Shown here piece by piece: positions 19,847 through 42,695 of a stretch of DNA of 47,709 nucleotides. The DNA lies in NCBI GenBank assembly GCA_008704415.1, contig VXIS01000350.1, forward strand, positions 1 to 47,709, in the 5' to 3' direction. Position 1 is the first letter of the stretch, and each line of letters starts with the position of its first letter. Origin of the DNA: Sphaerosporella brunnea (Eukaryota; Ascomycota; Pezizomycetes; Pezizales; Pyronemataceae). Position numbers and translations under genes: made by a program. The notes under the pieces are model-generated. The model did no database searches. It saw nothing but the letters and a program-made list of their open reading frames with translations, and was not told the DNA's origin.

Positions 19847-21784
19847 TCACGGCTCCGGCTTCCGCCCATACACGACATGACTGTTTCCACGACAAAGCAG
19901 CAGTTAGAGGGTGACAAAGCCAACTGAGAGCGATTTCCCTCGGCAACTCACAGGAAGTTGTACGTGTGGAGATGCTTGTATCTCATGGCCTGATAGGCGT
20001 CGCGGCAGAGCTGGGCTGCCTCCTCTTGCGGTATGCCCAGGATGCGAGTGAACGCGGCCATGGAATACGCTTCGATTCCTGGGGGGGGGGGGATCGATCC
20101 ATCAGTTGGCCCCCGCGGCACCAATCACTCCCGAGGATTTTACAAAGGTCTCACCTGTCTGCAGCATCATCAACGCCATGGAGCCGGCTTGCTTTAACCG
20201 TTTATCTTTCGGCCAAGGCCCAAAGGGCTGCTTATACCTAACGCAGCCAGCCATGAGAGATCTCTCGGAAAAAAAAAAAACGGGAGATTGCCGTGGTGGG
20301 GACTCACGAGGAAACCGTGATGTCGACGAATCCAGCATCCTGCAGATACTGCTTCATACGCGCAACGGTGGGCGAGGGCCGCCCGATTCTCTTCATGGCT
20401 TCGGCGACGAGATCGACCACGCGCTTGGCATGGTTGTCGTCGGCAAGGCTTCCGTCGTCGCTGAGAAGCTCGCCCAGCCCAACTTCTACCAGCTCCACCT
20501 GGCTGCGAGTGAGAAGGCTGCTTCAACGTGGACACGAAGAAAGCACACATACATAGCCGCCTGGCGTTGTGCAACTTATCGAAGCGATCAGCACGCCCGG
20601 TTCCAGAAAGCAAGGCTTCCGTCATCAAACATGTCACGCGCGGCGCCCCGCAACGTTGATTTCAGCCAAAGCCCCCCCTAGCAAGGCAAAGTGCTAGGCC
20701 GGCGCTGGAAGAATTTGGAGAATGAGAATGCCGACTCACCGGTAAACCTCCGACATTACGTGTGACCAGTTGGAGATGCCCTGGGCTAGGTTGCGGAGGT
20801 GGATAAAGTCGAAGTAATCGGGCTGGAATGTCCACTCCATTTCGGCGTCGTCGACTTCAAACTTGCTGTGCAAGGGTGGTTAGCGAGATTCAAAAAAAAA
20901 GAATCCCCCAGTCAACTAGCCCAGGAGCGCGGTTTACCAGTTTGCCGGAACCCTGATGGATGCATGGTAATACAGAGCGTCAGCTTTCACCATCTATCTC
21001 GCCATCTCGACGCTTCACGACCCACCATGTCGGCTGGATGGGGCTGTCCACAGTCAGCAAAAACCAGGAGAAACCGGCTCTTCGCAAAGGAAAGCACCTC
21101 AAATCTGTCCCGATGACTTCCGCCGCCGGATATGTGTCGGCCATGTCGATCGCCCAGATTCCAGTGCCCGTTCCGACATCGAGGATGCGGTGAGGATTCC
21201 TCAACGGCGCTTTGTGGAATTCACCTTCCAGCAATTGGAGGAAGATTTCGTGATGCAGGTCCAAACTGGCTTGCAGGTGAGCGGGAAAAAAAAAAAACAA
21301 AAAAAAAACAAAAACACTCCAAAGTCGCGCAAGAATAGACGTGATTTCTCACCGATCCTGTTCGGTCTGATTTAGAAAATTAGCGCTGCTTTCCCCGCCA
21401 ACAAACGGGATCGGAGAGCTGGAGATGCCTTGTCGGTGGGCAGGAAATTCTTGTCGGGGCCGAAGTAGGCGTGGTAGCGACGACCTGGAGAAACAACGGA
21501 CGGGGGGGCGTCAGTTTCACGAGCGCGCGCGCCGCAACGGAACTCGGCCCGCACCGTTCTCGTATATGTACTGGTTGACTGAGCTAGTCAAACTGGCAGT
21601 GCTGGTATCGTATGCTGGGGAATTGTAGCCCGACTCGGTGTTATAGTGGCACTGCGGGGCGGGGGGAGCAATGAGCAACCCGGACGAGCGGTCAGGGTGT
21701 GTGAGCATTCGGAATTCCTACCAACGCCGGATCGACTTCGATCGAGGTAGAGGCCGATTGCTGTGCAGCCGCGTTGGTCGCCAT
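19847..21784 (-). CDS. LaeA/UMTA-like SAM-dependent methyltransferase, 13 exons
   Basis: Exons (minus): 21784-21722, 21651-21555, 21484-21429, 21366-21353, 21265-21098, 21043-21026, 20952-20938, 20865-20740, 20574-20553, 20498-20308, 20237-20155, 20078-19952 and 19880-19847. The sum is 1014 nt, 337 aa. Every join keeps frame and restores family text: [29 protein letters not shown], motif [11 protein letters not shown] (~105-114), IGTDLSPIQPTWVPANCKFE, then PGGYVELVEVG, and the ending [10 protein letters not shown]. Four exons are only 14, 18, 15 and 22 nt. The intron at 21367-21428 needs a GC donor (AAG|GCATCT), the weakest join. The family includes pathway O/N-methyltransferases and the regulator LaeA, so it may tailor the cluster product or influence its expression. 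Start chosen as the first ATG giving a family-like N-terminus. Confidence 0.85.
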
Positions 21785-22798
21785 GTCCGAGTTGTCGTGG
21801 AGGCTGGACGCAAAAAAAGCTATCGAAGAGTTGTTGCGGTCGGTCGGTGTATTGAACCCCAGCGTGGTGGCCGGCGATGTTTGTCCCTTTATGCGAGTCT
21901 GGCGCCATCCGCCTCGGGCCCAGTGCGATCTCGAGGCGATGCTGCCCTCCGTTTGCGTAAGGGAGCGCCCAAGGCGGTTAAGAGTGGCCGTTTCTTACGC
22001 GGACGTTCGTCTTGTGCAAGTGCTGATTGGTTTCCATGTGCAGCAGCCATGCAGTAACGCCTGAACCAACCACAGTTGCGAGCGCGAGAGTACTTGAGTG
22101 GACGGATAGGTGTCCCCAATCGCAGCCTAGGTTCGTCGCCAAGTGACCCGGAAACTCGGGACGCCACGCGGCTGCCTCACCAAGATCACCAGATCGACGA
22201 CGCGGCCGCACAAAATCTGTAGGGTGGAGGTCAAGTCCATTTCGGTACCTGATATACCCCCCGCCATGATGCACTCTACGGGGGGCGCTATGACTGCAGA
22301 CTTGGATTGTGATTGCGACCGGCACGGACGAAAACCAGTGTCGCAGCTGGGCGGGCTCACCGAGCTCTCATATGAGAAGGTATTAATTACCTCAAAAAAA
22401 AAGTGTCAAACATTTCGATACTATACCAGAAAACCTAGGGTAGATCACTACCAGCGCGACACTATATTTGCAAAACTGTCATATTCTTTTCACTGAGTTA
22501 ACTCGGAATTCTTTTGTACCATTATCGTCGAGTTGAAAATATTGTTGCACTTTACCACCTGTTTCGATGACGAGGGCTCTTTGGAACCTTGGATTTGATA
22601 ACACATGTGATCCCGGTTGGTTTGGTTTAGAACGAGCGAAGTGCAGAGATGGCCAGCAGATTTCCTAGCGTGGGCGCGGATGCCCACCGAAGCCGTACAC
22701 ATGTATGTACAACACAACACAATACGACCAACTACCACGGAAACCCACCCGCCGGTTAGAAAGGTTAGAGTTAGAGTTAGGGGGCCCGGGGGGGTTAG
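21785..22798. other. Upstream region of the methyltransferase gene, no second gene supported
   Basis: Several short frames overlap on both strands but none resembles a known family. G-rich TTAGAG/TTAGGG-like units occur at 22755-22798, directly next to the left end of a TIR element. Confidence 0.35.
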
Positions 22799-23712
22799 GG
22801 CCCGTCTGGATTCGCGGTATTTAGGAGATAATGGTCATTTGGCCTAAATATCATTAGGAATGAAATGGGGGTGTGTTGCGAAATGAGCCCCGTCAGTATC
22901 GCTGTGATATCACCCGTCAACCACCGCCCACCCTGCCCGCTCACCCAAGCCAACAAACAGGACCGAGAAGCATGGCTGGCCAAGCATTGCAAGCCGAAAA
23001 AATACTTCCGCCGCCGAATTAAACCCCGATCCGACAGCCTTCAAGGGCCGTAAGACCCTGACATCGCGTTTCTTCCAGCTCAGGCTAGGGAAGGCGCCGT
23101 TGGCACCCACCATACCTGCACAAGACTGGACGACGGGAGGACGACAAATGCTGGTTCTGCACGAAGAAACCAGTCAGACAAGAGATCAGCTGTTCAAATC
23201 CTGGGCTCGATGGAAGAAGGACCAAGCGATACTGTGGAAGGCAGTGACTGAGGCTGCGAGGAAAAGTGAGGGCCCGACAGGGAGAAAGACCAACACGTTG
23301 TTCAAGGTCCTGTTGTCAGATGAGCGATGTACGGAAGCGGTGTTAGATTTCCTAAGCACACTAAAGTGGGGATATGGCCGGGCTAAGCCTAAGGGTGCTC
23401 TATGACATGTAACCTTTCACGGATTTCCTTGGTGCGCATGCTCTTCCCTTTGTCTTCTCTCCTTGGAAGTTTCAGCCCCAGAGTAGGACTCGAGCCTAGG
23501 GGCGTTATGTAGCTACTTCTATGTCATGGCCGCAGGCGGCCGAATACATTATGATTAAAAACAAAAAAAAAAACCACCCTGCCCGCTTCTACAAGAGACA
23601 ACCCCACCGCCCGGCTGCCGCCCCGTCTGCTCACTTCCTGCGGCCGAATTAGCGAAAATATTTTTTGGCCAAATGATCATTATCGCCTAAATACCACCAA
23701 TCCAGACGGGCC
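22799..23712. mobile_element. Non-autonomous TIR element, interrupted by a LINE copy
   Basis: Left end GGCCCGTCTGGATT at 22799 is mirrored at the right end (23699-23712). The inverted repeats extend ~46 bp with about four mismatches and include TATTTAGG and CATTTGGCC. Flanks read GTTAG and ATTAG, a possible short target duplication. Without the nested LINE the element would be ~270 bp. It has no transposase. Confidence 0.75.
22942..23573 (+). mobile_element. 5'-truncated Tad-like LINE copy with poly-A tail and 14-bp target duplication
   Basis: The sequence CCACCCTGCCCGCT occurs at 22928-22941 and again at 23574-23587, flanking this insert. The insert ends in an A-rich tail (23557-23573). It encodes the C-terminal end of a LINE polyprotein: FQLRLGKAP, then in another frame YLHKTGRREDDKCWFC (zinc-knuckle-like), then LLSDERCTEAVLDFL before a stop at 23402-23404. 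Frameshifts between these blocks show it is dead, as expected for a truncated copy. Confidence 0.85.
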
Positions 23713-24058
23713 ATTAGACATTAGGAATACCTAGGTTTTAGCGTTTAGGTCAGCTGGGAATATTATCAATTTTTATCGTGAAAATTGAGTAGTAACAAAA
23801 AGGTATTTTGTACCGTATTGACTCGGCTGTAAACTTCTGGCATTGGATTATTCTGGCATTGGTTTAGGGTTAGGGGTAATGAGGAATTTGCGCAAACGAG
23901 ATATCATATGATACACACATCGTAGAACTATGAGCACCACACAAACGGAAATATTTAGCATTGTACATCGTAATGCGAGACTCTACTCTATGTAAAGAAT
24001 GTCTGTTATCGATATTTCCAAAAACTTCCAAGCCAATCGCAAAAGGACATTCCCGCGT
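23713..24058. other. Spacer with a solo MITE end
   Basis: At 23811-23828 the sequence TACCGTATTGACTCGGCT equals the end of the complete MITE at 43712-43907, but no partner end is nearby, so it is a truncated copy. A short TTAGGGTTAGG-like patch lies near 23865-23877. The 3' region of the terpene synthase gene falls here. Confidence 0.6.
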
Positions 24059-25527
24059 TCAAAGTTGGATGACGACCTTCCCGCTTTCTCGCACCGGATT
24101 CTCTCCAAAGTACCTGGAGCAATTGTAGCTACACTAAGTCAGTTCACTCGCCTTAAAACGCAACAAAGAAGACATCGATCCCAACCTCCAATTTATGCTG
24201 CCAGTGCAAATATCCTTGCAGCCAAGCACAAGCCTCTGTACACTCGCATCAAGCTCAGTGTTCCCAGAGGGCAACGGCAAGCAGCGTTCAGCCTCTTCGA
24301 ACGCGGTGTGCGCTTTGCGGATCAGATCGACTGCGCGGTCCATCGCACCCTGGGCACTCATGCCGTCCTGGTATGCGAGAACACTAATAATGTTTCCAAC
24401 CTGTCCGGACGCCTTTTGATCGCAACCCGGGTTAGCTCGCCAGAGATTACTATTAGGGAAGGAATGCGAGGAGGATACATACCATTTCTGGGCCTAATGA
24501 CACTATGTCGTTGGACCTACATGAACGTCAGTAAGAGTGACGATATAGAGCCAACTTTGGAGGGGGTTAAGTACAGCATGACGATCTCGGTCGTTCTCTC
24601 CATGATTTCCTGCACTGCATCGTGCTCTATTATCGCTTGGGGGATATCTAAGCCGTAGCAATACCTAAAAGTCGTTTAGACTCATCAACCTACCCCACAT
24701 GAATGCAGAGATTACATACTCAATCAGTTCAATTGAGGGTCTCACACCTACCGTCAATCGACGGTTGGCACATTGTTCCGCAAGGGTCGGCATGCTTCCG
24801 TTCTGGCGCTCAGCCCACGCCGTAACGCTATCAATATACTCCCCGATCTCGTGTAGAAAGCGTTTGCGTGGCCCTGTCACAGGAAAATGCAAGTTATTAG
24901 CAAGAAAAACGGTCGCTATGCGGCAAGAGCCTAGTGGTTTACCTAGTGGGCATTTATTTGCAATTTTAGAAACTATCCTCGTTAAGCCGTTGGTGATGGG
25001 TTGTAGAGTCCCGGGTGCCAGGATGGGTTCCTTGTTGAGGATACTCTCGATGTGCCGTTTGGTCTCCTCTTGAAGCCGCTTGGGCCCATGGATGTCGGTA
25101 GTGAGGTCAAAGTTGTCGTCCCATTCGAAAATCTACCAGCACAGTGGCAAAGTCAGATCCGTTGGAACAAGATAGAGAGAAGGGAGAGTACCCAGGCTAG
25201 GTAGCAAGCCATGTCGGCGATCATCTCCTCATCCGCATCTGGATACATGCATTTCGCCAGAAGGCCAGGCTTGCCAGCCCGGGCTTTGGCGTGGGTTGAC
25301 TCGTTGGTAGTCCAGCTATAAACGATAGACTTAGCTTTTTTGATCCCTTCTTGTCAGTCTCTAGCCAACCTCTGTATCCACGCTTCGACGGCGTCGTTTA
25401 CACGCTCGCTGCAGTCACGGCTAGTCTCGTAACGCCAGCCGGGAAGGGCCTCATAAAGGTTTGGAAGGAGGAGCTTTTTGCCTCTGACTAGCGAAAGCGC
25501 CTTCTGTTGGGGTGTGCCAATGGTCAT
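24059..25527 (-). CDS. Class I terpene synthase (sesquiterpene-synthase-like), 343 aa
   Basis: Eight exons (minus): 25527-25370, 25315-25192, 25132-24943, 24873-24720, 24664-24575, 24516-24483, 24412-24186 and 24113-24059; the sum is 1032 nt in frame. Ionises a prenyl diphosphate and cyclises it. The Asp-rich metal motif is WDDNFD (D99-D103); the second metal motif is NDIVSLGPE (241-249), a perfect NDxxSxxxE, rebuilt by the 34-nt exon. ANRRLTVGVRPSIELIEY supplies the usual pyrophosphate-sensing Arg region, and the C-terminal RY pair (326-327) is present. Length fits fungal sesquiterpene synthases. The acceptor of exon 7 could also be at 24400, removing four residues. All catalytic motifs are intact, so an active enzyme is likely; substrate chain length and product cannot be read. 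Confidence 0.92.
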
Positions 25528-25622
25528 TTTGTGGATGTGTGAGAAGGTGCGGGTGCTTGGGATTGGTATTTGTCGGTTCACTGCAGGATTCGAGACGAGG
25601 TACTACGGGTATCATTCTTCTC

Positions 25623-25628
25623 TTTATA
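25623..25628 (-). promoter_or_regulatory. TATA box of the terpene synthase gene
   Basis: TATAAA on the minus strand about 95 bases upstream of the ATG at 25527. Confidence 0.5.
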
Positions 25629-26349
25629 GTGGCGCAGCGCTCCAATAGACCCTTCGGGCTAAGTTGCGGATGTAGCGGAAAGGAATGACCGCTATCAACG
25701 TCCGTGACAAGAGCAAAGCGCTGGCCTTTTTTGGGAACGTTCGTCTTCATCTTATTCCAAACCCGGTTGTCGAGACTCAGTCCCGTCCGCGCCTCTTACA
25801 GACCGAATTTCAAGGGTTGGTCGAGTGACTATCTATGCAACTGCACAATTCGGGCCCGCAAATTTTCAACATGTCGACGCGGGCCGCGGGGAACGAAAGC
25901 GAACTGCCCACTGTACTGTCGGTAAATATCCGGCTGAATTCGGTCTCTCATCGAAAAACGGCAGATAACACTGCGACCACGGACTTTCACCAGAGTTGTT
26001 GACATGGCAGCTGCGTATGTACGGTCCGTCCGCATATACAGAGCCAAGCATTGCCCGGTGAGTAGCCCGCTCAGCGACAGCACATCAGGCCCCACAACTC
26101 ACCGGCTGCGCACCGCGGACTTGGTTCCCCGACTGGGAACATGCTTGAGTGTTCTGACTGGATACGTCCCCGATTCTGTGACTGTATTCGACTCCAGTAT
26201 TCTAAAGGCCCCTCTTGTCACTACACGGGCATACCTCGACTCAATGCGCTAGCGCCTCGGGTTATCCGTTGATATGCCTTTCCCAACGGCCTGGTTCAAT
26301 CACAGAGCTAGTATGCATGGGCTCAAATAGACCTGACGGGACTGGTCAG
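25629..26349. other. Intergenic stretch, no gene supported
   Basis: Lies between the terpene synthase promoter and a TIR element. No recognisable coding or RNA feature. Confidence 0.35.
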
Positions 26350-27061: not shown

Positions 27062-27559
27062 CAATGCCCGTCTGCCCGACCGGTTTTAACTACCCGCACC
27101 ACAACAAAATAACTCGCGAAGAAAACAATAACGCGTCAAAAAAAAAAAAAAGAAGAAGAAGAGGTGGTGGGTGGAGAAGAGGCTGCTCCGGGAAGCCGCG
27201 GGGAAGTGCCAGAACGTGAATGAGTACAATTTGAGCATTCTCTATCTACAAAATGGTCTGCAGTTCCGCACATTGTGGCCTTCCCCTCTACAGCGAGAAC
27301 ACCGTTGGACCCGATCCGGGACATAGAGAGCACAAATAAAAGCAGCGCGGCGTGCACGCTGTTCCCCCGCTGTAAGAGGTGCCGTTGGGAGATGGCCTCA
27401 CGGCGACGGCACAGAGATGCGGACACCTTGCAATAATTCTCTTCTCTCAGCCACAGACTGGCATTATGGACTTTTCTCTTGACGCGTTATTTTGTTGTGG
27501 TGCGGGTATTTAAAACTGGTCGGGCATCATAAAACATAATAAGCGCCAGACGGGCATTG
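27062..27559. mobile_element. 498-bp TA-flanked TIR element
   Basis: Begins CAATGCCCGTCTG after TA (27060-27061) and ends with CAGACGGGCATTG before TA (27560-27561). A second internal inverted block (CCCGCACCACAACAAAATAA and its complement) extends the terminal repeats to about 80 bp with gaps. No transposase; contains an A-run followed by (GAA)n near 27138-27162. Confidence 0.7.
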
Positions 27560-28917: not shown

Positions 28918-30290
28918 ATGCCGCATCCTACCAACCTCCACACAAAGCCAGTTCTAATCATAGGGGCTGGAATTGCTGGGCTGGCCCTTGCCCAGGCGCT
29001 GAAAGAAGTACGTTTTTATTTACATCGCAGCAAACCTTGGTTGATGGAATATGGTAGATTGGTGTCCCCTTTCTCGTTTTCGAGCGGGATACAGCGGCCA
29101 ACAGCCGACTCCAAGGCTGGGCTCTTACGATCCATTTCGGCCTCCCCGAGCTGCTTTCTCTGTTGCCCCCAGCCGTGAGCGCGCACATCGACTCTACCCA
29201 GGTAAACCCGGCCTTAGCATATGACAGAAGCGACTCTATTCTCATCAATCTTGCCGACTGCGGGGTCAAGTGGCGGCTGCCACCTGGTTCAGGCACCAGG
29301 AAGCGGGTGTCGCGGGATCGCTTCCGAAAGCTCCTGATGGACGGATTGACAGATAATATTCTCTGGGGGAAGACCTTTGTCGATTTCACCGCCCCCAGAG
29401 ACAGCGAGACTGTGACAGCCGTATTCAGCGACGGATCCTCATATGAAGGCCTGCTTCTGGTCGGTGTCGATGGCGCGACATCCAAAGTCCGTTCATTGCT
29501 TTATAGCCTTGAGAGCTTCCCCCCGACCCCTATCCCAATTACGTTTCTGGGTACCTCATTGCATGTCACTGGGCCCCAGATACGTCCTGTGCTCGACTTG
29601 GATCCTGTGCTCTTTCAAGGTTGCCACCCGCAGTCAGCAACATGGATGTGGTTTTCAGTGATGGATAGTCCCTCGACCAACGGAACAGCGTCGCTCCCGT
29701 ACGATGAACAGGTATGGAGAGTACAGCTCTGCCTATCTTGGCCCTCACCTGGCGATGAGGAGATTCCAGGTACAGATGCAGAGAGGGTCCAGATGATGCG
29801 CCGGAAATCGCTAGACTTTGAACCAAGATTGAAGGCAATCTTCCATGAAGCCTTACCTGACGACCATGGGCCTGTGCTGCGGATTGAGCTGGCCGACTGG
29901 TGCTTGCCATCGCAGAGGAATATGGAGCAGGGTGGTAGGGTCACTTTGGCCGGCGGCGCCGCCCACACGATGGTCATGTGTGCGTTCTCCTTGTTCGTGA
30001 AATTCCCCAGTTCCAACACTTACAAGCTGGTTGTAGATCGCGGGGAGGGCTTTAATCATGCCATCGTCGACGATTATAAGCTTGTAGCAGCGATCAAGAG
30101 GATTTACGATCCCACACTTTCGGAGAGGGACTTAGCGAGGGCCCGTGAGCAGGCGATCGATGAATATGAGTTCGAAGTGTCGGCGAGGGGAAGTAGTGCC
30201 GTGGCGATGTGCCGAGAGGCGTGTTTTGACGTGCACCAGTGGGAAAAGTTGGATGAGAACTCTGCTGTAAGGAAGAAGAGGGTTTTGTGA
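28918..30290 (+). CDS. FAD-dependent monooxygenase A (group A flavin hydroxylase)
   Basis: Three exons: 28918-29007, 29058-29979 and 30037-30290; 421 aa. Expected to use NAD(P)H and O2 to hydroxylate or epoxidise a small substrate. The N-terminal FAD-binding GAGIAG is at 16-21 (VLIIGAGIAGLAL). After the first intron come ERDTAANSRLQGW and LTIHFGLPELLSLLPP, typical of fungal members. Splicing the second intron (57 nt, T|GTGCGT...TTGTAG) restores LAGGAAHTMVMYRGEGFNHA, the second FAD motif (usual GDAAH is GGAAH here). Unspliced, this intron stays open in frame and adds 19 residues. The gene converges with monooxygenase B: the two stops are only ~41 bp apart, so their 3' UTRs should overlap. Confidence 0.88.
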
Positions 30291-30331: not shown

Positions 30332-31809
30332 CTACGAGAGAGACCGGTTCTCCACAACAGCGACAGTGTGTATGAGCATCTTCTCAGCTCTCTCCCATTC
30401 CGCTTCACAGCCGCCGTCCTCCATTAGCCACTCACAGCTCTGGCCCAGTTCTATCCCTATCTCCTCCTCTGTCTTTTCCTTATATCCCGGGAGCAGAAAT
30501 CCATAAATAAATCCATTCTTCAAAGACCTCTCGGCAACGCTCTGCGCAAAAGGTCGCCTGATATCATCATAAACCCGCAGAACGGCCTCCAAATTCTCTT
30601 TTTGGGCGACGGGATGGGCCAACAGCTTCCAAAGGATAAAGGCGTCTTCCATTCCCTGGCCACCACCTAGCCCCTGATGCGGCGTCATTGCGTGCGCAGC
30701 ATCCCCAACCAGAGCCGTGCGGGCACCAACAAAAGTTGGCAAAGGCTCCACAACATGGATCGCCCAACGTGACGCCCTCTCCGTGGCGCCCAAAAGACTG
30801 ACCAGATCAGGCTCCCAGCCTTCAAAAAATCGTGATATCTCACTTGCAGGGACATCAGCCACCCAGGCCCCGTCAAAAGCACGACGGTGGTCAGCTGGGA
30901 TGTTATCGTATGCCGTGATTTGGATCTGCTCGCCCATACTGTTTGATGTCACATGGCGCCCGGTTCCGCACCACTATTTTTTTTACACCTATAAGCATGA
31001 TTTTTTCCTCGGGCGGGGGGGGGAGGGGGGAGGGTGCGAAAAGGTGTGCTGACAATTTTGAAGCCAGAAAGGCCTATGTGCTCGGGTGGCAACATCTCCT
31101 TCGGACAGCTCATGCGATATGCGAATTGGCCGCTGAAACGCGGCTCTCCGTAGAAGGAATCACCCGCGAACAGTGTCTTGCGCACCCGGGAGTGCACGCC
31201 GTCGGCTCCAATAAGGAGGTCGGCAGTTGCGGTCGTACCGTCGCTGAAATGTAGTGTGACCTCTGACGAGGATGCCGCGTAAGCGCGCAAATGCTTGCTG
31301 GTGTGCACGGTGCAGGTCGCCGGATTGAGTTTGCTAGAGAGGAATTCCAGCAAGACGGCACGCGGCAGGACATGTGGCCCGAAAGTGAGCCCGAAGAAGT
31401 CGTGCGCTGTTACGAGATGATCGGATTTCCGTAATACGGGACCGCGGACTGACACATTGTTAGCACACCGGAGAGAGAGAGTGCGAAACGCGAGGAAGGT
31501 GAGCGACTGGAAGACCAATTCGGGGGTTTGATTCCAAACTGGTAACAATCCTGAGAGATACTGTGGACTTCGTCCAGGATGTCCCAGTATCTCTTCCAGA
31601 CGGCAATTCCGGCACCGATAGCCCGGACCTCAGCTTTGGCTTCGTAGACGGAAACTGAAACCGCCGAGGCTTTGGAAAGGAAGGAGGCAAGCGTGAACCC
31701 GGCGATGCCGCCACCGCTTGGAACTCTTTAGCAGTGAGTATGCATACAGGGACTGGATATGGACGTACCAGATGGCTATGTGGAATTTTGCGGGGCTTCC
31801 AGAGTCCAT
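30332..31809 (-). CDS. FAD-dependent monooxygenase B (salicylate-hydroxylase-like)
   Basis: Four exons proposed (minus): 31809-31769, 31716-~31490, 31448-31054 and 30973-30332; about 434 aa. The 41-nt first exon plus second exon gives the Rossmann motif FHIAICGGGIAGFTL. Later come VYEAKAEVRAIGAGI, ADLLIGADGVHSRVRK (DG motif), then WCGTGRHVTSNS after an 80-nt intron, and LVGDAAHAMTPHQGLGGG (GD motif). The end of exon 2 is uncertain. The acceptor at 31448 has a clear GCTAAC branch, but the only donor in the right phase near the expected place gives a 41-nt intron (GTTTCG), and other choices lose ~20 residues. A 1000-bp transposon lies 168 bp upstream of the ATG. Likely an aromatic-ring or enol hydroxylase of the cluster. 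Confidence 0.82.
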
Positions 31810-31976
31810 TTTAGCTTTGATAGTGATAGTGTTGGTGCTTCAAATTCCTCGATCGTGGGGTCGGGGGGCGGGGGGGGGGGGGGGTTCTAAAATAGCCTTG
31901 ACATTACACACTTGTCGTCCGATAAATGTTCACCTGTCAAGCTACGATTATTTTTTACTAGATGTTGAAGAAACTA

Positions 31977-32976
31977 TCCCCCGCAGTGTTAAAAGCGCTG
32001 AATACACCTACGTCACGCTAAAGTCTTAAATAATGAAGCGTCCATTCGCCCATTACCCTTATTATATACGACTTTTTACTCCCGTACCTCCCTCTGGGGC
32101 CAAACTTACTTCCATACCCCCCAAATTACCGTACCCCCTGTGGATGAGTGAGTGAGAATTTGTGATCACTTGCATTGCCTGTGAGAGTTCATGGTTCATG
32201 ATCTACCGTGACTCCCTCAGGCTGTCGCCGCCGCCGGTCCCCAGCAACCCAGCTATTGATAGCATGGGTCATAGCTCTCTTGCAACAAGCACAACACTCT
32301 GCTCGGAGCTATGACGTCTAGCTTAGCAGTTTTTCGTTACAGAAAGCTTGTGCACCAGCAGATATAGTCGCTATACCGTCGAACCTATCTGTAAAGCCTA
32401 TCAGGACACAGCAGTGCCCTGTTGGAATGCTTGCGCCGTCATATACGCAGAGGGAAAGGCGATTCGATGACAAAAGTCTACAGCTCTCGCTCAGAGTTTG
32501 AAAGTGAACTGTATCCAACAATGTGAGCTACTATCCACCAGAATTTATCGTGAGAATGGCAAGCGTAAGGGTGATATTCGTCGCCCTAAGTAAAAAGGCA
32601 AGCGGTTCCTGGTGCACTTCCCCTAATCCCCAATCGCCGTCCCCCGCGCTACTTCAACCGCAAGGAGATAGTTAGATCATTATGTATCAAAGTGCAGAAG
32701 GCGGCTCACTTATTTTGGTACAATGTATGATAGTTCAAGTGGACTTTACTGCTGCGAAATAAATATGGGTGGAACGTATGTATGAAGGAGCGACGATGCG
32801 GGTGTTTTCACTCACACACTCACAGGGGGGTACGGTAGTAAGAGTAAAAGTTGAGGGGTACGAAAGAGAGTTTGGTCCCGGAGGGGGGTATGGGAGTAGA
32901 AATCTGTATTATATAATCTCTTTCCACATAACTAGTGTGATGAAGGTATATTCGGCGCTTTTGACACTGCGGGGTA
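31977..32976. mobile_element. 1000-bp TA-flanked TIR element, copy 1 of the TCCCCCGCAG family
   Basis: TA at 31975-31976 and 32977-32978 flank ends TCCCCCGCAGTGT and TACCCCGCAGTGT (right end read on the complement). Terminal inverted homology continues with gaps for about 190 bp, including CTCCCGTACCTCCCTC-like and GTGAGTGAG blocks. No transposase frame, so it is non-autonomous. Mismatches between ends show it is older than copy 2 at 44311-45370. Confidence 0.8.
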
Positions 32977-32978
32977 TA

Positions 32979-34049
32979 GAGTACTTTACGTAATGAGCTC
33001 TTTGAGTTATTTTGGATAGGCAATTTAAACAGGCAATGAAAGACTTCCTGTAAGGATCTAAAAGGATTTAAAAGGGATATGGAAGCTTTGAAACCTTATT
33101 TTTCCGGAAAAACCGTCCAGACGAAAAGTCTGAATAGAGGAGGGGGGGGGGTCTATTTAGACTTCCAGACGTCCAAAAGTCTGGGTCACGCGAGGTATTT
33201 GGGGTGTCACTGCGAGTAGCCGTAAAACATTGGCCGTGACGTCGCCCTCGACTGGTGGTTGTGTGAAGGCAAAGATCGCTTTACTTTTGAAAATCAGCTC
33301 AACGGGAATGGCGGGACCCTTTCAGACACAGTTTCTGACTTCTAAACCCTTCTAAATTCTTGCGGGAAGTCTTCCAATCTATCTGAAATAGATTTACGCA
33401 TACAGAATAACCATTGCTCATAGAAGGGATGGGATCACAGAGAAATACGGACTTGAAAAGCAAGGCGGAGACTGATCCCCTATGCATTTCCCCCGCAGTG
33501 TTACAACCCTAGGCCTAGTTATAAGAGGCAGGAAGGTTCCAAGTAACTTTTCAAACTCCTCTAGACGAACTGTGGCTGGTGTAGCTTTATTAAACTTGAT
33601 CGATGTTTCCAGGTGGTTATATATCCTCCAAACTCTTCAGACACCAGCGTTCGTGCCGCCAACATATCATTCCCGTAACTTGGGAAAACAACCTGATTCG
33701 CCGGCGGACCAAACATCTAACAGTATCCATTGGCACGGACTGGGAGAGAGCTTGTTATTTGATCTGGTTTGGCCCCTAATCGATCAATTTACCAGATAAT
33801 TTGAGAATCTTGAGTTCACCGATCGTAGTCAGCAGGTCTTAGAGTTGGCCTGCTCTGGAGAGTCCGAGCTTGGTCGGAAAAGTGCGGGGTATTTTGACGG
33901 GTGGAGAAGTCCATTCGTCCCGAAACTCGATGATGTTTGCTGAGTCGGCTGAGCCACATCGCACCGCCACATGCATCTCACCCCGAGATACCCCCAGGCT
34001 GCGATGGGGTAATCTATCGGTTGCTCTCGCTACCACACCACACATACTC
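32979..34049. other. Intergenic stretch with weak inverted repeats
   Basis: A degenerate inverted pair (AAGACTTCC...TTTAAAAGG near 33039-33075 against 33340-33375) may be another worn TIR element. A solo TTCCCCCGCAGTGTTA at 33487-33502 matches the ends of the TCCCCCGCAG family without a partner. No gene supported. Confidence 0.4.
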
Positions 34050-34096: not shown

Positions 34097-35621
34097 ATGC
34101 GAACTATGACCGATACCCAAGTCAACGTCGACGCCAAAGAAATGGTTGGCGGCGAAGACCTGTCCCGCATCGTGAGTCTCGTTCTATTTTTTTGATCATG
34201 AATACGAACTTGATAAGTTACAGTTAGTATCCTCCCCTTCACCTCAATCTGTTCACGATCTCCCAAGCGCCACCGCCGTCTACGCGTGGCCGTCTATCCT
34301 TGCGCCTTATCTATCGACTGCTCTCACCCACCGGGGTTCCTATACCGAGTCGGAAATACTCCATCACACCGCTTTCTTCGCCAAACATGTATCCAGTTGG
34401 CTTGGCCCAGGCCCCACCGGCTCCAACAGGGCTCAATATCCCTCTTCAATGACGAAGGACTATACACCTTTCGAATTGAGTTTCTGCTGGAAAAGCGCGC
34501 AGCAAAACGGGACTCCCATAGTCCGTTATGTGATCGACATCTTCCCCCAAGATCCAACCAGCGACAGGCGGGGCTCGCTCTCTCGAGCGCTCGACGCCAT
34601 CGCGTCTCTCAATGTGCTCTCCAAGGAGCCTGATAACCAACTCTCGGTGTTCCCCGAGCTGTGGTCTCACGTCACACGCTTTTTTATGAGTATTGAAGCG
34701 ACGCTCCATGCGACCCCCTGCGAGTCCTGCCGACCCTCTTCCACGTTCATCGGCTTCGACCTCGTTGCCACGCAGACAAGGGCAAAACTCTACTGGCTTC
34801 TGCCGTCGTGTCAGAGCACTCCCGACTTGCTGCAAACCATCGACCAACTCTTTGAGACTTGCGCCAGCGTGAACCCTTTTTTTGCTTCCACATCCTTCAC
34901 CGCCGGATGGTCGCAGCTCCGTGAGCACGTCGCCGCGAACGCCGAATCTTTGCGACCGCGGATGGTCAGTATTGATGCCACTCGCTGGCCGGCGCCGAGA
35001 GTCAAGTTCTACACGCGATGCGTCTTCGCGGAGTCGAACAATGGGTTCGGCGTTATTCGGCCACACCTAACGCTTGACGGCAAACTCTCTTTGGAGAGTG
35101 ATTTTGAGAACACATGTGAGCGGTTGTGGGAGGGACTCGTGCAGAAGGAGGGGGAGAAGCGATCAAAGTATTGCATGCTGCTTTGGGATATCGGCGTGGA
35201 AGGAACGGTCGGGAGTAAGCTATACATCATGTGCCAAGAAATCCCTAGAACCGATGTTGTGGTGGCAGGAAAAGTGTTGGAGTGCTGTCGCGCTTCCGCA
35301 GGCGCCGGATTGCTGGAGTAAGTCTCTCCTCCACTGTTTGCATGGGAGCGTTGACGTGCTGAGAGAAGTTACGTAGGGCTTTTGCAGCAAAGGACACGCC
35401 ATCCGCGTTTATTGGCGAGTGAGTCATCGCAATCTAGTAACACGGACTGAGGTTGAAGCTAATGCTACGATAGAATTGGGCTTGCACCCCGCGGCGCAGA
35501 GACGGAGGTATCGATCTATGCCAGTCCTTGTTGGTTTTCGAAGGATTTATGGAAGGAAGGTGAGGATGAAGAGGGATTGCTGGAGAAGATCTGTCCCTAT
35601 GGAGGGATGTATGGTTCGTGA
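34097..35621 (+). CDS. DMATS-type aromatic prenyltransferase, 452 aa
   Basis: Four exons: 34097-34171, 34224-35317, 35377-35418 and 35474-35621; 1359 nt in frame. Transfers a dimethylallyl or similar prenyl group to an aromatic acceptor, usually an indole or tyrosine, by the ABBA-fold mechanism without a DDxxD motif. Seen: YTPFELSFCW with Glu109 at the position of the catalytic acceptor-binding Glu of the family; VRYVIDIFPQ; ARVKFYTRC-type strand written here as PAPRVKFYTRCVF; and the C-terminal strand ETEVSIYASPCWF, recovered only by splicing the last two introns. Length is normal. The nearby aminotransferase and aldolase suggest an aromatic amino- or keto-acid acceptor, which is inference. 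An alternative in-frame ATG is three codons downstream. Confidence 0.92.
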
Positions 35622-36648
35622 ACGTCATGCTCCTGGTGCTGTACATATATGGAGTGCATTTGAGTCCATTAGTGCATGGCAGGGCCCAAGCCTCTTAAAT
35701 TGTGATTTGTTTTACACGCGTCAGCTGTCAAGCGGGTATGCACGAACGTGGTGGTGGTTGGGGCACTATGCTCCACTGAGGGGAGGTCGAAACGACAGTC
35801 ATATCCGCTCAGCTTCAATTCAACGTAATCTGTGATATATTATAAGAGCACGCACGGAGCCATACTTCCCCATTAGGGAGGTTTAGCTAGCGATACAACA
35901 CAATTGCAACTCAAAACTAGACTGCGGCTGGTGCACCGTTGTTCGCGACAGAAAAAAAAGAGGTTATAGCGACAAGCACTTCCACCATCATATTCCACCA
36001 ACACACCACGTTCTATGAAGCTGCTAAAATACTGGCAGTCGTTGTAGAAGCCTCTGCTATGGTGTGTTTCTTCTGTAAAATCATTGATTTTTTTTTTTGC
36101 AGGTACGTTAGTCACGTATGACTGCCCAGGATCAAAGCTGTGTGGCTATTTCCCCGACGATCACGGACGGGCCGATCCTAGAACAAAGCCCAAACCCAAT
36201 ATGCTTAACTAAGCCTTAAGGATTTAGTAGCATTACATACTGACAAACAAGCGGAGCCGTTCTTTCTACCAGGGTAACGTTAACCTGCCGCGGTATCAGG
36301 CCGTTGTCAAATGTTGTGTGATCTACATCTGGGCGGGTTACCCAGGATGTCCAGAACTATTGCGCAATTTCTTGAGCTCGAGGATTTTCTGGAGGGAATG
36401 AAGGTTTGGAGCGAGGAAACGGCGGAAGGCCAGGATGATGATGAGCGGCTTCAAGGGTTCTAGGGGCTGACGGTAGGGCAAGGGGCAGTTTCTGGAGGCC
36501 CCAAGGTGTTCGCCCCTGAGCATCAAAAATCGGCGAGCATACGGTGGAACCAGTTTACGAAATACACCTGGACAAAATTTGGCTGAAACATAGCTACTTA
36601 TTTACACAAAACACATTTCGGAGCAGACAACTCTGGCTCTGCCTTCGT
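35622..36648. other. Intergenic stretch between convergent genes, no gene supported
   Basis: Lies between the 3' end of the prenyltransferase (+) and the 3' end of the aldolase (-). Short frames show no family resemblance. Confidence 0.35.
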
Positions 36649-37804
36649 TCAATGGCTATTTGCCTGTCCAATATATCTCTCCGCGCTATCCGTGCGTGAT
36701 CTTTTGGCTGCTGGCTGTCCATTGCCATTTTCCAGAGCTGCCTCACCCCTCTTCTCGCACTCCTTCAAGAGAGTTTTCATATTCGCCAGATCTTGTCGAT
36801 GCCCATTTACCACACTTATAATGTCGGCGCTTGTCAGCAACAGACTAAACTTACTGACCCAGGCATTCGAGTTTGCTGACACCTTAAAAGCGACTGTCAT
36901 GAGTGGCTTTCGATGCCGTTGGGAGACAGCTATCAGCCGGTCCATTTCTCGTAAGAATCGTGGGTGGTCATTCTCTGCTGATCCTACGGGCTTATGGGGT
37001 AGCCCTAGCGATACACGCAGGTCGCCGGGCCCAAGCATCAAGGCATTGACACCGGGTGTCGACGCAATGGCCTCTAAATTATCCAGTGCGAGCTAGACTA
37101 TCATGTCAGATTTCTAGTGATTCCGGTCAAAGAAGGCGTGGCTGATAATTTGATGCTCACCGTGGATTCGATCTGGACAATGACGGCGATGTGGGCATCA
37201 GCCACCCGCAAGTGATCATAGCCCGGTGGTGCCAGATCCGTGGCCCCTGCAATCAACGCAGAAGGAGAAAGGGAGCGATCTCCACCCGAATAAGGGTATT
37301 TGCATTTTTCCACTGCCCTGGCCGCCTCTTCGGGAGTGTCGATGTGCGGGAAGATTATTCCAGCGGCGCCTGCGCTTGGTGAGTGACCGCTTCCAAACGC
37401 GACAAAGTATGGATACCCACCGGCATCAAGAGCGTGAGTGAGCAACTCAGATTCTGAGCTCGGCACGCGCACAACGGCAACGGTACGGCCTTCGCTCGCA
37501 AGATTCACAGTCTGGACCAGTTGAATCAGATTCTCGGCGTTAATCGCACTGTATGTGTTAAGAAGGAACCGATGAGAGAACTGATTATCCGATAGAGCAA
37601 TTACCTGTGCAAGGCATCGATCATGACAAAATCTAATCCCAGAACGGCCACCGAACGCGCAATGGTAGTGTGTGGTAAGGCAACCACAGAGCCAAACAGA
37701 TGAGATATGGGCACGCCGGAAGAGGGATCCAGTGTCCCCTCAATGGCTTTCGCAAGGTTGGATGGCTGGAAAAGGGAGAGCGCTCGGTGTTGCTGCATGT
37801 TCAT
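36649..37804 (-). CDS. HpcH/HpaI-family aldolase (macrophomate-synthase-like), 343 aa
   Basis: Three exons (minus): 37804-37605, 37548-37161 and 37092-36649; 1032 nt in frame. A Mg2+-dependent class II aldolase fold that cleaves or forms C-C bonds with a pyruvate enolate. Seen in order: ALPHTTIARSVAVLGLDFVMIDALH (first strand and helix), HSAINAENLIQ across the first splice, VRVPS with Arg94, GIIFPHIDTPEEAARAV, VQIES with Glu194, and LGPGDLR with Asp220. Glu194 and Asp220 occupy the metal-ligand positions of the family and Arg94 the substrate Arg. The C-terminal ~30 residues are polar (AAKRSRTD) and extra to the fold. Oriented divergently from the aminotransferase with a ~730-bp shared upstream region, which fits co-regulation. 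Confidence 0.9.
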
Positions 37805-38535
37805 CGCTTATACGTTCCTAGATATGGTGAAAAACTATGGATTATAAAACATTGTTAGATCTCTCGGTGGCAATTAACTGAGTGACTGGTTTGTGGGAAC
37901 CCTAAAGACTGTCTCTCTGTCGAGAAATAGATATTACACCGCTTTATTTGGGCACGATTCCCGAAAGCAGTGGGTACCCGAACAGCGGCAAGCTACGCTC
38001 GACTTTGCCTACCTACTATAATAAACTAGATATGTGGTTATCCGTGGGCCTTTTTTGGCGGACGGCAGAGGAAACAATAGCGCACTTCGAGCGGAAAAAT
38101 AATGTAGTGCCTATTAGTTGTACCTGTATTCAGGTTACAGCGGGAACTTTGATAGTGCAGGGATTGAAAAAAAAACGCAAGCTGGAACCCACAAACTCCA
38201 TATCTGCCGCTGAACAACCACTCTCGGATGTATATTGTGCGCGTACAAAAAAAGCGGCTGGGGGCGTTCAGAGCCAAAGTAACCTCGATTCCGGGTTTAC
38301 CTTGATGTATGATGGATATTTATACCGAGGGAATCGATAGCCAAAGCAGGAACTTATACGTAGGGAGTATTGCGAAGAAAAGGCCAATAATCGACCGGGT
38401 CCAGTACAGATATCCTTCCACGTCGTTTACAAAGCTGCTGATTGCGGTCTGGCTTCCGTTCGCCTCTCATAACTATACTGAAACGCGTCTTTTTGCATTC
38501 GGATTAGCTCTTTCGCTTCTTTCTCAATCGTAACG
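37805..38535. promoter_or_regulatory. Shared divergent upstream region of aldolase and aminotransferase genes
   Basis: About 730 bp without a supported gene between two divergent starts. A bidirectional promoter is inferred from the layout only; I could not assign a specific operator. A TTATAA-type AT-rich patch lies near 37841-37850 on the aldolase side. Confidence 0.4.
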
Positions 38536-39919
38536 ATGAAGCTGCAGCCTGCTCACTTCTCGCTGGAGTATGCCATCCGACCCAACGTCCTTGCTACGTC
38601 TGCCTCTATCACATCGACGTATGATGAATCTCAGCCTCGCACAAGCGTCGTGCTTGACGCCAATGAAAACCCCTTCGGGAGTTGTCTGACACAGGGTTCC
38701 TTCACACTACCAATGAATGGCTCCACAAGCATAGACAGTATGGCCGCGATAGGCTTCGCCGAGACGGCCTCGCTACATCGCTACCCGTCTGCATCCCAAG
38801 CACAGCTTAAAAGCGCGATTGCAGCGTGGAAAGGGCTTCCGAGTAAGCTCAACTGTCGTCAAATCATGACGAATGCTCATGGTCTGGATAGGTGGCGGAC
38901 ATGTATGCCTGGGAATCGGAGCGTCGGATCTCATTGACCTCACCATCCGTATAACGTGCAGACCTACAAGAGATGCGATCATGATAACTCCGCCGTCATT
39001 TCCTCTCTACAAAGCCAGAGCAGACTTGAATGAGGTGAACGCTGTCGAGTGCCCGCTCAAAACCGGTGAAGGCGAGGACTTATTCCAGTTGCGGGTGCCA
39101 GAGGCGAGCAAATGTTACTCCTAAGCACCGCCTTCCTGCCGCTAACTGTCTTATCTGCAGATGATGGACCAGCTCCACAAAAACCCCCAGATCAAAGTGG
39201 TATTCCTTGCCTCCCCAGGCAATCCAACAGGCACACTGATCCCGCTCTCGGATATCCGGCAAATCCTGGATTTTCCGAGCTTCCGCGGCCTCGTGGTCGT
39301 CGATGAAGCCTATATCGACTTCAGCGATGGAATCTCCGCCCTTAGCCTGCTTGACACATACAACAATCTCGTTGTCATCCAGACTTTCAGTAAGATGCAT
39401 GGACTGGCAGGTATCAGGTGAGTGGTGACACTACTTTCTGTTCTGGCGCACAAAATTAACCACGTCAACAGGGTCGGCGCAGCATTCGCTCACCCGGATA
39501 TCGTTGAGATGATGCACAGGATGCAGATGCCTTACTCCATCTCCACTCCATCCTCCACGTTGGCACTGCTCGCCCTTTCACCCGCAGCGTCCCAAGCACG
39601 GCGGCTGGCAAAAGCTCAGATAACAGCAAACCGCGCCTCGCTCAGAAGCGCACTGGCAGAGCTAAATTCCCTCGGCGTCGGTGTGCCACTTGATGGCGGT
39701 CATGCAAATTTCCTTTTGGTGCCGATATTGAAATGCGGGACGACGCAGCGGGACGGCACGAGGGCGCGAACGCTCGTCACGCGGCTGAAGGAAGAGTGGG
39801 CAGTGTCGGTGCGGTACGTGGGTGAGATGCCAGGGCTGCAGGCGTGCTTGAGAATCGCAGTGGGAACAAAGGCGGAGAACGCGAGGCTAGTGGAGGGGTT
39901 GCTTGCTATTCTGGCCTAA
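38536..39919 (+). CDS. HisC-like PLP aminotransferase (histidinol-phosphate aminotransferase family), 407 aa
   Basis: Four exons: 38536-38842, 38892-39103, 39161-39417 and 39472-39919; 1224 nt in frame. Fold-type I PLP enzyme. Seen: LDANENPFG, LHRYPSASQ, LGIGASDLIDL after a 49-nt GTAAGC intron, SPGNPTGT with Asn194, VVDEAYIDF with Asp221 for the pyridine nitrogen, and FSKMHGLAGIR with the PLP-binding Lys251. The second intron is best read with a GC donor (GAG|GCGAGC, branch GCTAAC): this aligns to the family without a gap, while the nearest GT donor costs three residues. The family works on histidinol phosphate but also on aromatic amino acids. Its place beside a prenyltransferase and an aldolase suggests a biosynthetic paralogue or a self-resistance copy of HIS5-type enzyme. 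Confidence 0.9.
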
Positions 39920-42101
39920 TGAACGATTAAATGCCTCTCCCTCGTGGAAGGGGGTAACAAAATTTGTGGCTTAGTAATGAAAACCCTCATGGTCTGGCAG
40001 GCCTGTATTTGGTCCGTTGGTGTTGGCAGCGCGGCGGACTTGATGAGGTAATCCTGTTCCCACCCGCCCGCCTTGCCCGCCTTGCCCGCCTCAAACTCCG
40101 CCTTGTGCACCAATCAGAATGAGATCTGAACAGGCAATCCGTTGTGATTGGACCACCCTCCAGCCACAGTCCCCCCCCCCCCCCACCAACTCGCCCGATT
40201 GCTCTCGGTGAAGAGCATATCAAACGACAGGCGACGGGACCAGGTTCAATGCCCGGCTTCATCTTTTGCAAGGGATTCTGCGGCGAGTGGCGGCGAGTGG
40301 CGGCGAGTGGCGTCGCGACCCGGCTTTACTGTCTCTCCTACACCCACAACTACTTTTGCTCCTAGAAAAATATTGCCTTTCGCGCCGTCAAATTCCTTGT
40401 TCGCTGCCATTGACCCAGTCGAACATCAATCAACAGCCAAAGCCAAAGGCGGTGGGTGCAACTCCAATGTTGGTTGCACTCGGCCACGGTATATATAATT
40501 CGGTCGCGCCCATGGAAAGAGCGGGCGGCTGGCGGTTAACTATGGGAGCCCCCCGCCCTCGCGCGTCAAGCGCAGCCGCTAGCAATTATACATGCTCTGA
40601 ACGTGGGAAGTTTGATCCGAAGATTCGAAGCAATGCTAGAATCAGTTTGAGTCTAGACCAATACACAGACGATCGACTTTCGCTCTCATATTTAATTCTT
40701 CCAGCTGTTTCAATAGTGTTCCTCTAGGGTATTCTACAGCGACCAAACTAGGCATTCGGTTCTCGCCGATCTTCATCTCACCTGCGATAGTGTAGGCACT
40801 GAAGAAATTCTGTGTAATAACTTATACCTATTGTAGGAGTACACTCAAGTCATGGAAGGGGTGAACGGTGATTCACAATCTCGTGGTATTTTTTCTACCC
40901 TAAATTGTTATGGAGGGTTGCGGTTAATATAGTAGAGTAGATTCAGATGGTAGGGATGCAGTTTATGAACGGGCTGATGGGTCCTGATGGGCGAGGGGGA
41001 CACGAACACACGGATCAGTTGCTCTACACATAATAAATTCCGAGGACCATTACGTTTGATACAAACCGAACAAGTGGACTTCTCCTGACCTTACCGGTAC
41101 AGGATACTATCCCGGTGACGGGCATATTTTGCGATGGGGGACTCCTACTCTACAATAAGCCATCTTTCGAGGCCTTGGGTGACATTTCAGACCCGAGATG
41201 TAGTCTGATGGTTCGGTTCGGTGGTAACTTGGGGACATTTAGGCGACTGGCGTTAACGTTGCTCCCTTCGCACCCGAGCCCCGATTACAGGAGCGATAAG
41301 GTTTTGCGGATTACTCCCAACTGGCGGCGTTTGGAGTCCGGCTGGGTCATACTAAATTGAGTTAAAACTATATTCGATGACTGCGGAGCCGGGCTTGGGA
41401 ACTCCATTTGGGAAATTCGTCAAGTATGCACGGGGTATCTGGCCGATCCCTTCGTCGGTCCGCAAAGACACAATTGTTTCCCCTCAATAGGCTAGCTCTA
41501 GCGACCATCAGTGATTGAACGACGAAGGGATAGTCTGGGTTTGCCCAGCTGGCCTGGTCCAGCTGGGAAAGATTTCATGTTTGGCTACAGCACAGTCCCC
41601 GGAGTTCATTGGAGGCACAGATCAACAACCACCAAGTACTCGGCAAGTGGATTCCTATCGGCGATAAAAGCGGGAAAAACTTCCGCTGTGCCTGTCCAGG
41701 ACGATGGCCGCCGGTGCAGTACCCGGAATGAGAGTCGAGAATGAACCTGATGTGAAACATAGAAATAGCGTCGCGGCCAATCGAAAGAAGACGCGTACGA
41801 AGGATTGACCGACTTGTCTATGAAGTGCGCGGTGGTGTTCTAACTAGAGTAGCCGTCCTGCGGCGTTTTTCCGGAATCGCTACTATCGTAGCCTAGTAAG
41901 GCTGATTGGCGCGATATTCTGCATACTAGACACAGCAACCTGGCGTTCGTGTATTCTGAATCAATTGCGGCAGTTTTTGCGCAATGCACCGATGATGACG
42001 CCTGGGCGGGCGGGGTCCTGTGTAGAGTATATGAGGCGGTCGAATCCCGTAGTAGCTACATACCACAACAACCAAAGCAACTAGCACAAAGCACCGCAGC
42101 C
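39920..42101. other. Long intergenic region, no gene supported
   Basis: Over 2 kb with only short unrecognised frames. Contains a C-run near 40170-40183, a triple GGCGAGTGGC repeat at 40281-40312, and a cluster of C-rich GCCCGCCTT units near 40062-40091. The last part holds the thioesterase promoter. Confidence 0.4.
40281..40312 (+). repeat. Three 10-bp GGCGAGTGGC-type tandem units
   Basis: CGGCGAGTGG repeated three times in a row, then a diverged fourth start. Simple short tandem repeat. Confidence 0.85.
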
Positions 42102-42695
42102 ATGGAAACCGCAATCAATACCTTGCCCGAAGCCACAACGGAGAATTCTAGTGCTCCCTACTACCAACCGGGGTCCTCGACTCCTCCCCAATATCACCCC
42201 GACTTTACGGCTCATCCCTGGGCCCTTGCACTTCTCAAGTCGCCAAACGTCCGGCACCGGAGAGACTGGCTGCGCTGTGACTACAGCGACAACACCGACA
42301 CATTGTTGCGCCGCACAGTCGCCGCTACCGACTCGTTCCGGGCGTATGCCGCACTCACGCAATACCATCCGGAGACGGGGATGATCGAGAACTTGAATCT
42401 CATCTCGCTCGGCACGGATCTTAACGCCCATCAAAACCTACTCCACGGCGGGATCGTTGCAACGTTGCTGGATGAGATTGTTGGCGCTGCAGCCGGCTTG
42501 GGGTTTACGGCGTACTTGAATGTTTCGTTCAAGAAGCCAGTCAAGACGCCGGCTGTGGTGCTGCTGCGGAGTAGAGTCGTCAAGCAGGAGGGGAGGAAGA
42601 TAATCTGCGCTGGGAGTCTGGAGGATGGAATGGGGGGCATGTACGCCAGTGCTGAGGGGATGTATGTTCAACCGTCTGGGAAGCTTAAGCTGTAG
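42102..42695 (+). CDS. Hotdog-fold acyl-CoA thioesterase-like protein (4HBT family), 197 aa
   Basis: Start chosen at 42102 because its context (GCCATGG) is strong and the family-like part follows; the frame is open 51 codons further upstream. Expected to hydrolyse acyl thioesters. Residues ~95-197 carry the fold: NLHQ-type start NAHQNLLHGGIVATLLDE with HGG at 115-117 and the acidic pair at 124-125, then TAYLNVSFKKPVKTP (central strand) and SLEDGMGGMYASAEGMYV. Intronless. The N-terminal ~35 residues are polar and Pro-rich. It is the last likely member of the metabolite cluster. Such enzymes in clusters may release a CoA-bound intermediate or be housekeeping, and the sequence does not decide which. 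Confidence 0.85.
   Translation: METAINTLPEATTENSSAPYYQPGSSTPPQYHPDFTAHPWALALLKSPNVRHRRDWLRCDYSDNTDTLLRRTVAATDSFRAYAALTQYHPETGMIENLNLISLGTDLNAHQNLLHGGIVATLLDEIVGAAAGLGFTAYLNVSFKKPVKTPAVVLLRSRVVKQEGRKIICAGSLEDGMGGMYASAEGMYVQPSGKLKL

Follow-up and report, generated by a model that had tools for sequence, protein, structure and literature searches.

The question raised by this locus is whether eight enzyme genes lying together in a cup fungus form a biosynthetic pathway that operates free of an assembly line, and which of them belong to it. The window, meaning the whole stretch of DNA analysed here, is the entire 47,709-base contig C280 of the Sphaerosporella brunnea genome (50.57 Mb, 640 contigs); passages of PMC6908789 describe this species as an ectomycorrhizal cup fungus of the Pyronemataceae. 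Pfam scans and gene models place the eight genes side by side within 23 kb on both strands, at the positions that a sequence-only reading of the window had given them (Table 1), and such a run of adjacent biosynthetic enzyme genes is what is expected of a fungal biosynthetic gene cluster. That reading had also credited all eight with intact key motifs. All eight are present and complete protein models were obtained for seven; intactness could not be upheld for the methyltransferase, in which one exon was matched, at scores under the cut-offs. Three of the genes, encoding a DMATS prenyltransferase, an HpcH/HpaI aldolase and a HisC-like transaminase, are packed within 6 kb, and their association in other fungi supports a neighbourhood that exceeds chance. 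We tentatively read the locus as a specialised-metabolite cluster whose core would consist of the DMATS, a class II pyruvate aldolase resembling macrophomate synthase (MPS) and a HisC-type transaminase with altered specificity, acting by aldol addition, amination, prenylation and oxidation. To this reading, made from sequence, we give slightly less than even weight.

Linkage of the core was assessed with three protein searches, and two proteins from one source were counted as sharing a contig when their contigs were of equal size. The matches considered were the best 120 of 296 for HpcH, the best 120 of 3,027 for HisC, and 15 for DMATS. In Trichophaea hybrida the DMATS, the aldolase and the HisC-like protein all fall, judged by equal contig size, on a contig of 356714 bases, and the core proteins are 68-74% identical between the two fungi. 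A metagenome contig of 8431 bases carries the DMATS and the aldolase together (P0010, P0067), so that 3 of the 15 DMATS listed share a contig with an HpcH protein (S. brunnea, 47709; T. hybrida, 356714; metagenome, 8431). The aldolase and a transaminase of the window protein's clade lie on equal-sized contigs in all seven species listed with both (six of six without S. brunnea): S. brunnea, T. hybrida, Aspergillus parasiticus, Corynespora cassiicola, Dothidotthia symphoricarpi, Sodiomyces alkalinus and S. alcalophilus. Among control species listed with HpcH and an ordinary HIS5 only, none of three agreed (Heterobasidion irregulare, Ramaria rubella and Lyophyllum atratum, the HpcH protein of the last belonging to the macrophomate synthase side). 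The chance of five aldolase-transaminase agreements is ~2e-7, assuming 30 Mb per genome. Within S. brunnea itself, the closest hisC match after HIS5 lies 3 kb from the sole DMATS match in 50.6 Mb. The sequence-only reading had named homologues that never co-occur as the outcome that would speak against a cluster; for DMATS, HpcH and HisC-like proteins, the triple in T. hybrida and the seven pairs indicate, by equal contig size, that they do co-occur.

The transaminase belongs to the same family as HIS5/HisC and differs from the histidine enzymes in several respects. The annotated 404-residue protein (P0136) scores 171.8 bits by Pfam; it is reproduced exactly by using a GT donor 9 nt before the GC donor of our first model, which gave 407 residues. 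It reaches 256 bits with TIGR01141, under the cut-off of 276.55 bits, and 146 bits with E. coli HisC (1fg3). The gene was considered as the genome's own HIS5 and rejected as such, as a separate HIS5 scoring 304 bits lies on contig C62 and the window protein falls in a distinct clade. Among hisC matches in the genome, the HIS5 on C62 ranks first and the window gene next (122 bits for its best stretch), followed by the second stretch of the window gene and six weaker rows. A 50-row tree was built from the S. brunnea HIS5 and 49 of the 120 listed proteins (long branches were flagged, HIS5 among them). In it, a 15-row clade with support 100/100 contains all seven HpcH-linked proteins, which do not form one clade inside it; the other 35 rows include the S. 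brunnea HIS5. In E. coli HisC numbering, Y55, N157, D184, Y187, K214, R222, R322 and R335, which we take to be the pyridoxal phosphate (PLP) and catalytic residues and the arginines, are kept in 15/15 clade rows. Three positions that presumably line the pocket are switched in all 15 (D85 to Ser or Ala, E86 to Asp, Y110 to Phe) and are unchanged in 30 of 30 ordinary rows. On this pattern we read the protein as a transaminase of changed specificity. Its gene and that of the aldolase are divergently transcribed across a 737-bp gap, from which the two are probably regulated together.

The aldolase scores 92.8 bits with Pfam PF03328, and our final 324-residue model is letter-identical to the public annotation (P0016). 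At least one further HpcH locus is present in the genome by Pfam search (on C278), a scan that worked exon by exon and missed the window gene itself. The closest solved relative is macrophomate synthase of Macrophoma commelinae (PDB 1izc), at 105 bits; 1izc is also the closest by predicted fold, with TM-scores of 0.79/0.85 and 30% identity (the predicted aldolase structure having a predicted TM-score of 0.82). The MPS residues D70, H73, R101, H125, E185 and D211 are all found in the window protein, whereas E72 is replaced by Leu and Y169 by Asp. We take D70, H73, R101, E185 and D211 to be the catalytic and metal residues of MPS, and Tyr169 to be its pyrone-binding residue. Across 47 rows of at least 250 residues, the window protein included (4 shorter rows of 51 were excluded), D70 and H73 are each conserved in 44, R101 in 46, E185 and D211 in all 47, and H125 in 31; E72 and Y169 occur in none. 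In the tree, the window aldolase belongs to a 42-row clade (support 99/99, with several long branches flagged) that does not include 1izc. Since the catalytic and metal residues are kept, E72 and Y169 are gone and 1izc stands outside the clade, the enolate-forming machinery should work and the electrophile probably differs from the 2-pyrone of MPS; identity with macrophomate synthase itself was rejected on the loss of Glu72 and Tyr169 and the position of 1izc. According to passages of PMC8159843, MPS acts on 2-pyrones in vitro and was long debated as a possible Diels-Alderase. Together with the transaminase tree, these comparisons sharpen the labels of the sequence-only reading, which had named the HpcH and HisC-like families rightly, to a clade beside macrophomate synthase and a clade beside HIS5.

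Two observations concern the aldolase group at large. It may split into a form with DxLH and His125 and a minority with Gln72 (14/47) and Gln125 (12/47). Blumeria graminis has two such aldolases, whose gene numbers lie close together (BgTH12-04428 and BgTH12-04432; P0027, P0042), and further powdery mildews are among the matches listed. Powdery mildews are known to have lost most secondary metabolism, and retention of the aldolase there is odd.

The prenyltransferase is the single DMATS match in the whole 50.6-Mb genome. Its spliced model is letter-identical to the public 452-residue annotation (P0001), scores 139 bits with Pfam Trp_DMAT, above the cut-off, and has the predicted fold of a DMATS prenyltransferase. 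It reaches 103 bits with TIGR03429, under the cut-off of 163.85, and is 15-18% identical to the top fungal enzymes of the structure comparison; from its sequence, we class it as a divergent DMATS. A profile built from 15 relatives, in whose alignment 40 columns are invariant, ranks DMATS1 at 53.7, FunA at 51.8, FgaPT2 at 42.4 and AnaPT at 37.4 bits. The structures of DMATS1, FunA and FgaPT2 are titled with, or were solved bound to, free amino acids, and the fold comparison did not separate substrates (Z-scores tied). The substrate leans, weakly, towards a small free aromatic compound. A rival reading is a histidine pathway, in which the DMATS would prenylate free L-histidine, the HisC-like enzyme would interconvert prenyl-histidine and its imidazolylpyruvate, and the aldolase would extend the product. 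The free histidine prenyltransferase FunA (9iia) is the top solved relative in a single-sequence search (32.2 bits, with DMATS1 at 31.7), and the transaminase is akin to an enzyme of imidazole substrates and keeps Arg322 and Arg335. DMATS1 heads the profile ranking, and we regard a histidine pathway as improbable.

Known clusters offer a partial parallel. The ergot alkaloid and terrequinone clusters, like the window, pair a DMATS with tailoring oxidases, and that of terrequinone also has an aminotransferase. They rely on a nonribosomal peptide synthetase (NRPS) or NRPS-like enzyme or on an ergot-specific set, and we know of no aldolase of the HpcH kind in either. The oxidases of the window are two flavin monooxygenases whose genes converge, 41 bases apart. 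Monooxygenase 1 scores 55.5 bits with Pfam PF01494, 71 bits to 4hb9 and 52 bits to AbsH3; monooxygenase 2 scores 73.2 bits with PF01494 and 173 bits to the salicylate hydroxylase 5evy.

Linkage of the core is supported; its chemistry, from substrates through the sequence of reactions to the product, we infer as follows. The aldolase would form a pyruvate enolate from pyruvate or oxaloacetate and join it to an aromatic carbonyl compound, either an aldehyde or a keto acid. Amination of this adduct, a 4-hydroxy-2-oxo acid, by the transaminase would give a gamma-hydroxy-alpha-amino acid. Alternatively, the transaminase may supply an aryl keto acid ahead of the aldol step, and the order could thus be reversed. 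The DMATS would place a prenyl group on the aromatic ring, and the salicylate-hydroxylase-like enzyme and the second flavin enzyme would carry out oxidation. The central pair of reactions has a precedent in passages of PMC8482765, where pyruvate aldol addition followed by transamination to gamma-hydroxy-alpha-amino acids is a working in vitro cascade, with a different aldolase and, according to the abstract, non-aromatic aldehydes.

Several points weigh against a cluster built on this core. The same passages of PMC8482765 report that, in one route of the cascade, aldol adducts with aromatic substituents were converted poorly. The pocket switches of the transaminase clade point to no particular substrate. 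Equal contig size is an indirect measure and, with contigs of up to 9.1 Mb, does not itself imply adjacency, which only the S. brunnea window displays outright, with the 8.4-kb metagenome contig coming close. Twelve of the 15 listed DMATS share no equal-sized contig with a listed HpcH protein; contigs shorter than 10 kb account for five of these, and contigs of 20-85 kb with no matching HpcH among the matches listed for another five. Aspergillus melleus has its DMATS and HpcH proteins on contigs of different size (5,594,283 and 7,860,730), and A. parasiticus is an ambiguous case (131,407 and 1,821,207, perhaps in different assemblies). For the remaining eight proteins of the transaminase clade, the source had no HpcH among the matches listed, and in most fungi listed with the aldolase neither a HisC-like protein nor a DMATS was among those matches. 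Finally, the contig carries no match to a cytochrome P450 (85/85 candidates scored) and none of the 53 genome matches to a zinc-cluster regulator (78/78 candidates scored).

The last two absences would also suit a chance neighbourhood of unrelated metabolic genes, as would the uneven intergenic spacing, which runs from 41 bases to 3.4 kb, and the several repeat elements in the region. We consider this explanation highly improbable, as core linkage is kept in another genus at 68-74% identity and the aldolase-transaminase pair recurs in five further species; for the three core genes, it is already contradicted.

A broader proposal follows the same chemistry further. Together with a repurposed HIS5 paralogue, the pyruvate aldolase could form a chain-extending aldol-transamination module that makes prenylated, monatin-like gamma-hydroxy-alpha-amino acids. 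Such a module would define an assembly-line-free class of fungal pathway that recurs across distant filamentous ascomycete classes, and would suggest descent of macrophomate synthase from such aldolases. In the monatin-like route, an aryl keto acid and pyruvate would be joined and then aminated, with both carboxylates bound by Arg322 and Arg335, which the transaminase retains. As a general claim this is speculative and, in our judgement, rather unlikely to hold in full. If the pair were a conserved module, it would give fungi a route to non-proteinogenic amino acids that searches keyed to polyketide synthases (PKS), NRPS or terpene synthases alone could miss; the accompanying DMATS could diversify those amino acids, and the relative of macrophomate synthase would gain a genomic setting from which to guess natural substrates. 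We rate the locus as a fungal cluster with an unfamiliar core that is linked in other fungi too. Among the titles and abstract openings listed by searches of open-licence PMC papers (15 of 2,566 papers in one of them, 20 of 31 in another), none described this gene set, a scope outside which subscription papers and cluster databases lie. According to PMC10455484, terpene, NRPS-like and type I PKS clusters are the commonest in the 12 Pezizomycetes genomes surveyed there, and the word DMATS does not occur in its main text.

Beyond the core and the flavin enzymes, the terpene synthase, the methyltransferase and the thioesterase are possible accessories of the pathway. The spliced terpene synthase scores 131 bits with Terpene_syn_C_2 (PF19086), compared with 35 bits for a single exon alone, and its complete frame contains DDNFD and NDIVSLGPE, the DDxxD and NSE motifs expected of a class I enzyme. 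Its closest solved relative is 7w5f, terpene cyclase 6 (115 bits); the model reads MY at the site of RY in 7w5f. The raw frame carries an in-frame TGA near 25354, and the gene was therefore considered as a pseudogene. This is less likely, because the predicted splicing removes the TGA within an in-phase 54-nt GT..AG intron and the spliced protein aligns to 7w5f gap-free across the proposed intron site. The methyltransferase exon at 20983-21348 matches Pfam Methyltransf_23 and Methyltransf_25 with E values of 3e-5 and 5e-5, both under the cut-offs. A GTGTGIW motif and further exons are readable in the frames, and the stretches 20197-20661 and 21981-22367 gave no Pfam match; we take the protein to resemble LaeA. 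The thioesterase scores 26.1 bits with Pfam 4HBT and has a 52% identical paralogue on contig C1.

These genes could instead belong to a second cluster. In this alternative, a terpenoid unit comprising the terpene synthase and the methyltransferase, perhaps with one flavin enzyme, would abut the DMATS-aldolase-transaminase unit, and the thioesterase would belong to either or neither. Linkage across genomes was seen for the DMATS, aldolase and transaminase only, as two separate units would predict. Neither of the outer enzymes is peculiar to this locus: the genome holds four terpene synthase matches, the window's own included and others on C479 and C627 among them, and at least 27 methyltransferase matches of the same Pfam family (27 of 71 candidates scored). 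With four matches in 50.6 Mb, the chance that a terpene synthase would lie less than 10 kb from the sole DMATS is ~0.2%, which speaks for a single unit. Inverted repeats stand at 22799-23712, in the gap between methyltransferase and terpene synthase, and at 27073-27526, between terpene synthase and monooxygenase 1, where an edge might be sought; they mark no boundary, because another (31974-32979) sits inside, between monooxygenase 2 and the DMATS. Two abutting clusters are a doubtful but quite possible arrangement.

Inverted-repeat elements of 0.2-1.1 kb occupy several of the intergenic gaps and may explain the loose gene spacing. The pairs at 22799-23712, 27073-27526 and 43709-43910, in gaps and to the right of the last gene, have arms of 53, 53 and 74 nt that are 89-93% complementary. 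The elements at 44309-45372 and 31974-32979 are each ~1 kb long with terminal inverted repeats, which in the first are 54 nt and 100% complementary; the ends of the second are ~76% like those of the first. The 44309-45372 element has 91 matched stretches in the genome, its own included; besides many partial relatives, C434 carries another complete copy at 96%. The two are probably members of a non-autonomous DNA transposon family.

Table 1. Positions of the genes and related features in the window
Feature	Coordinates	Strand	Model and remarks
S-adenosylmethionine-dependent methyltransferase	19847..21784	-	multi-exon, partial model; left edge of possible cluster
Class I terpene synthase	24059..25527	-	8 exons, 347 aa; seven proposed introns
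Probable terpene synthase intron	25316..25369	-	54 nt; holds apparent stop
FAD (flavin adenine dinucleotide)-dependent monooxygenase 1	28918..30290	+	3 exons, 421 aa
FAD-dependent monooxygenase 2	30332..31809	-	4 exons, 428 aa; salicylate-hydroxylase-like
DMATS aromatic prenyltransferase	34097..35621	+	4 exons, 452 aa
HpcH/HpaI aldolase	36649..37798	-	4 exons, 324 aa; macrophomate synthase relative
Aldolase-transaminase intergenic region	37799..38535		737 bp; probable shared promoter region
HisC-like PLP aminotransferase	38536..39919	+	4 exons; HIS5 paralogue
Hotdog thioesterase	42102..42695	+	single exon, 197 aa

The introns of the seven complete models are GT..AG and of 49-80 nt, the first transaminase model having had one GC donor instead. 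On the right, the region is bounded by the contig end at 47709, 5 kb beyond the thioesterase gene. Seven open reading frames at the right end, and seven between or over the genes, gave no Pfam match, a scan that other open reading frames of 42.7-47.7 kb and small or multi-exon genes may escape. An Rfam scan of the window yielded nothing that reached the gathering scores, and a search for major facilitator superfamily transporters, with 9 of 182 candidates scored, tells nothing either way. That no assembly line is in view, as the sequence-only reading had it, is borne out on this contig for ketosynthases (no match, 9/9 candidates scored) and less firmly for adenylation domains (none listed, 14 of 50 candidates scored), up to a contig end 5 kb past the last gene. 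Elsewhere in the genome, six successive adenylation domains, spaced by ~3 kb, lie at C59:50946-68448 and probably belong to a large NRPS.

To the left of the region lie genes for a neutral ceramidase, a ubiquitin-conjugating enzyme and a DDX60-like helicase. The helicase, at 13168-18838, combines a PIN-like domain with a DEAD box and is read across several frames. A weak reverse-transcriptase match at 5907-6404 (PF00078, E 0.005, under the cut-off) is a possible retrotransposon remnant.

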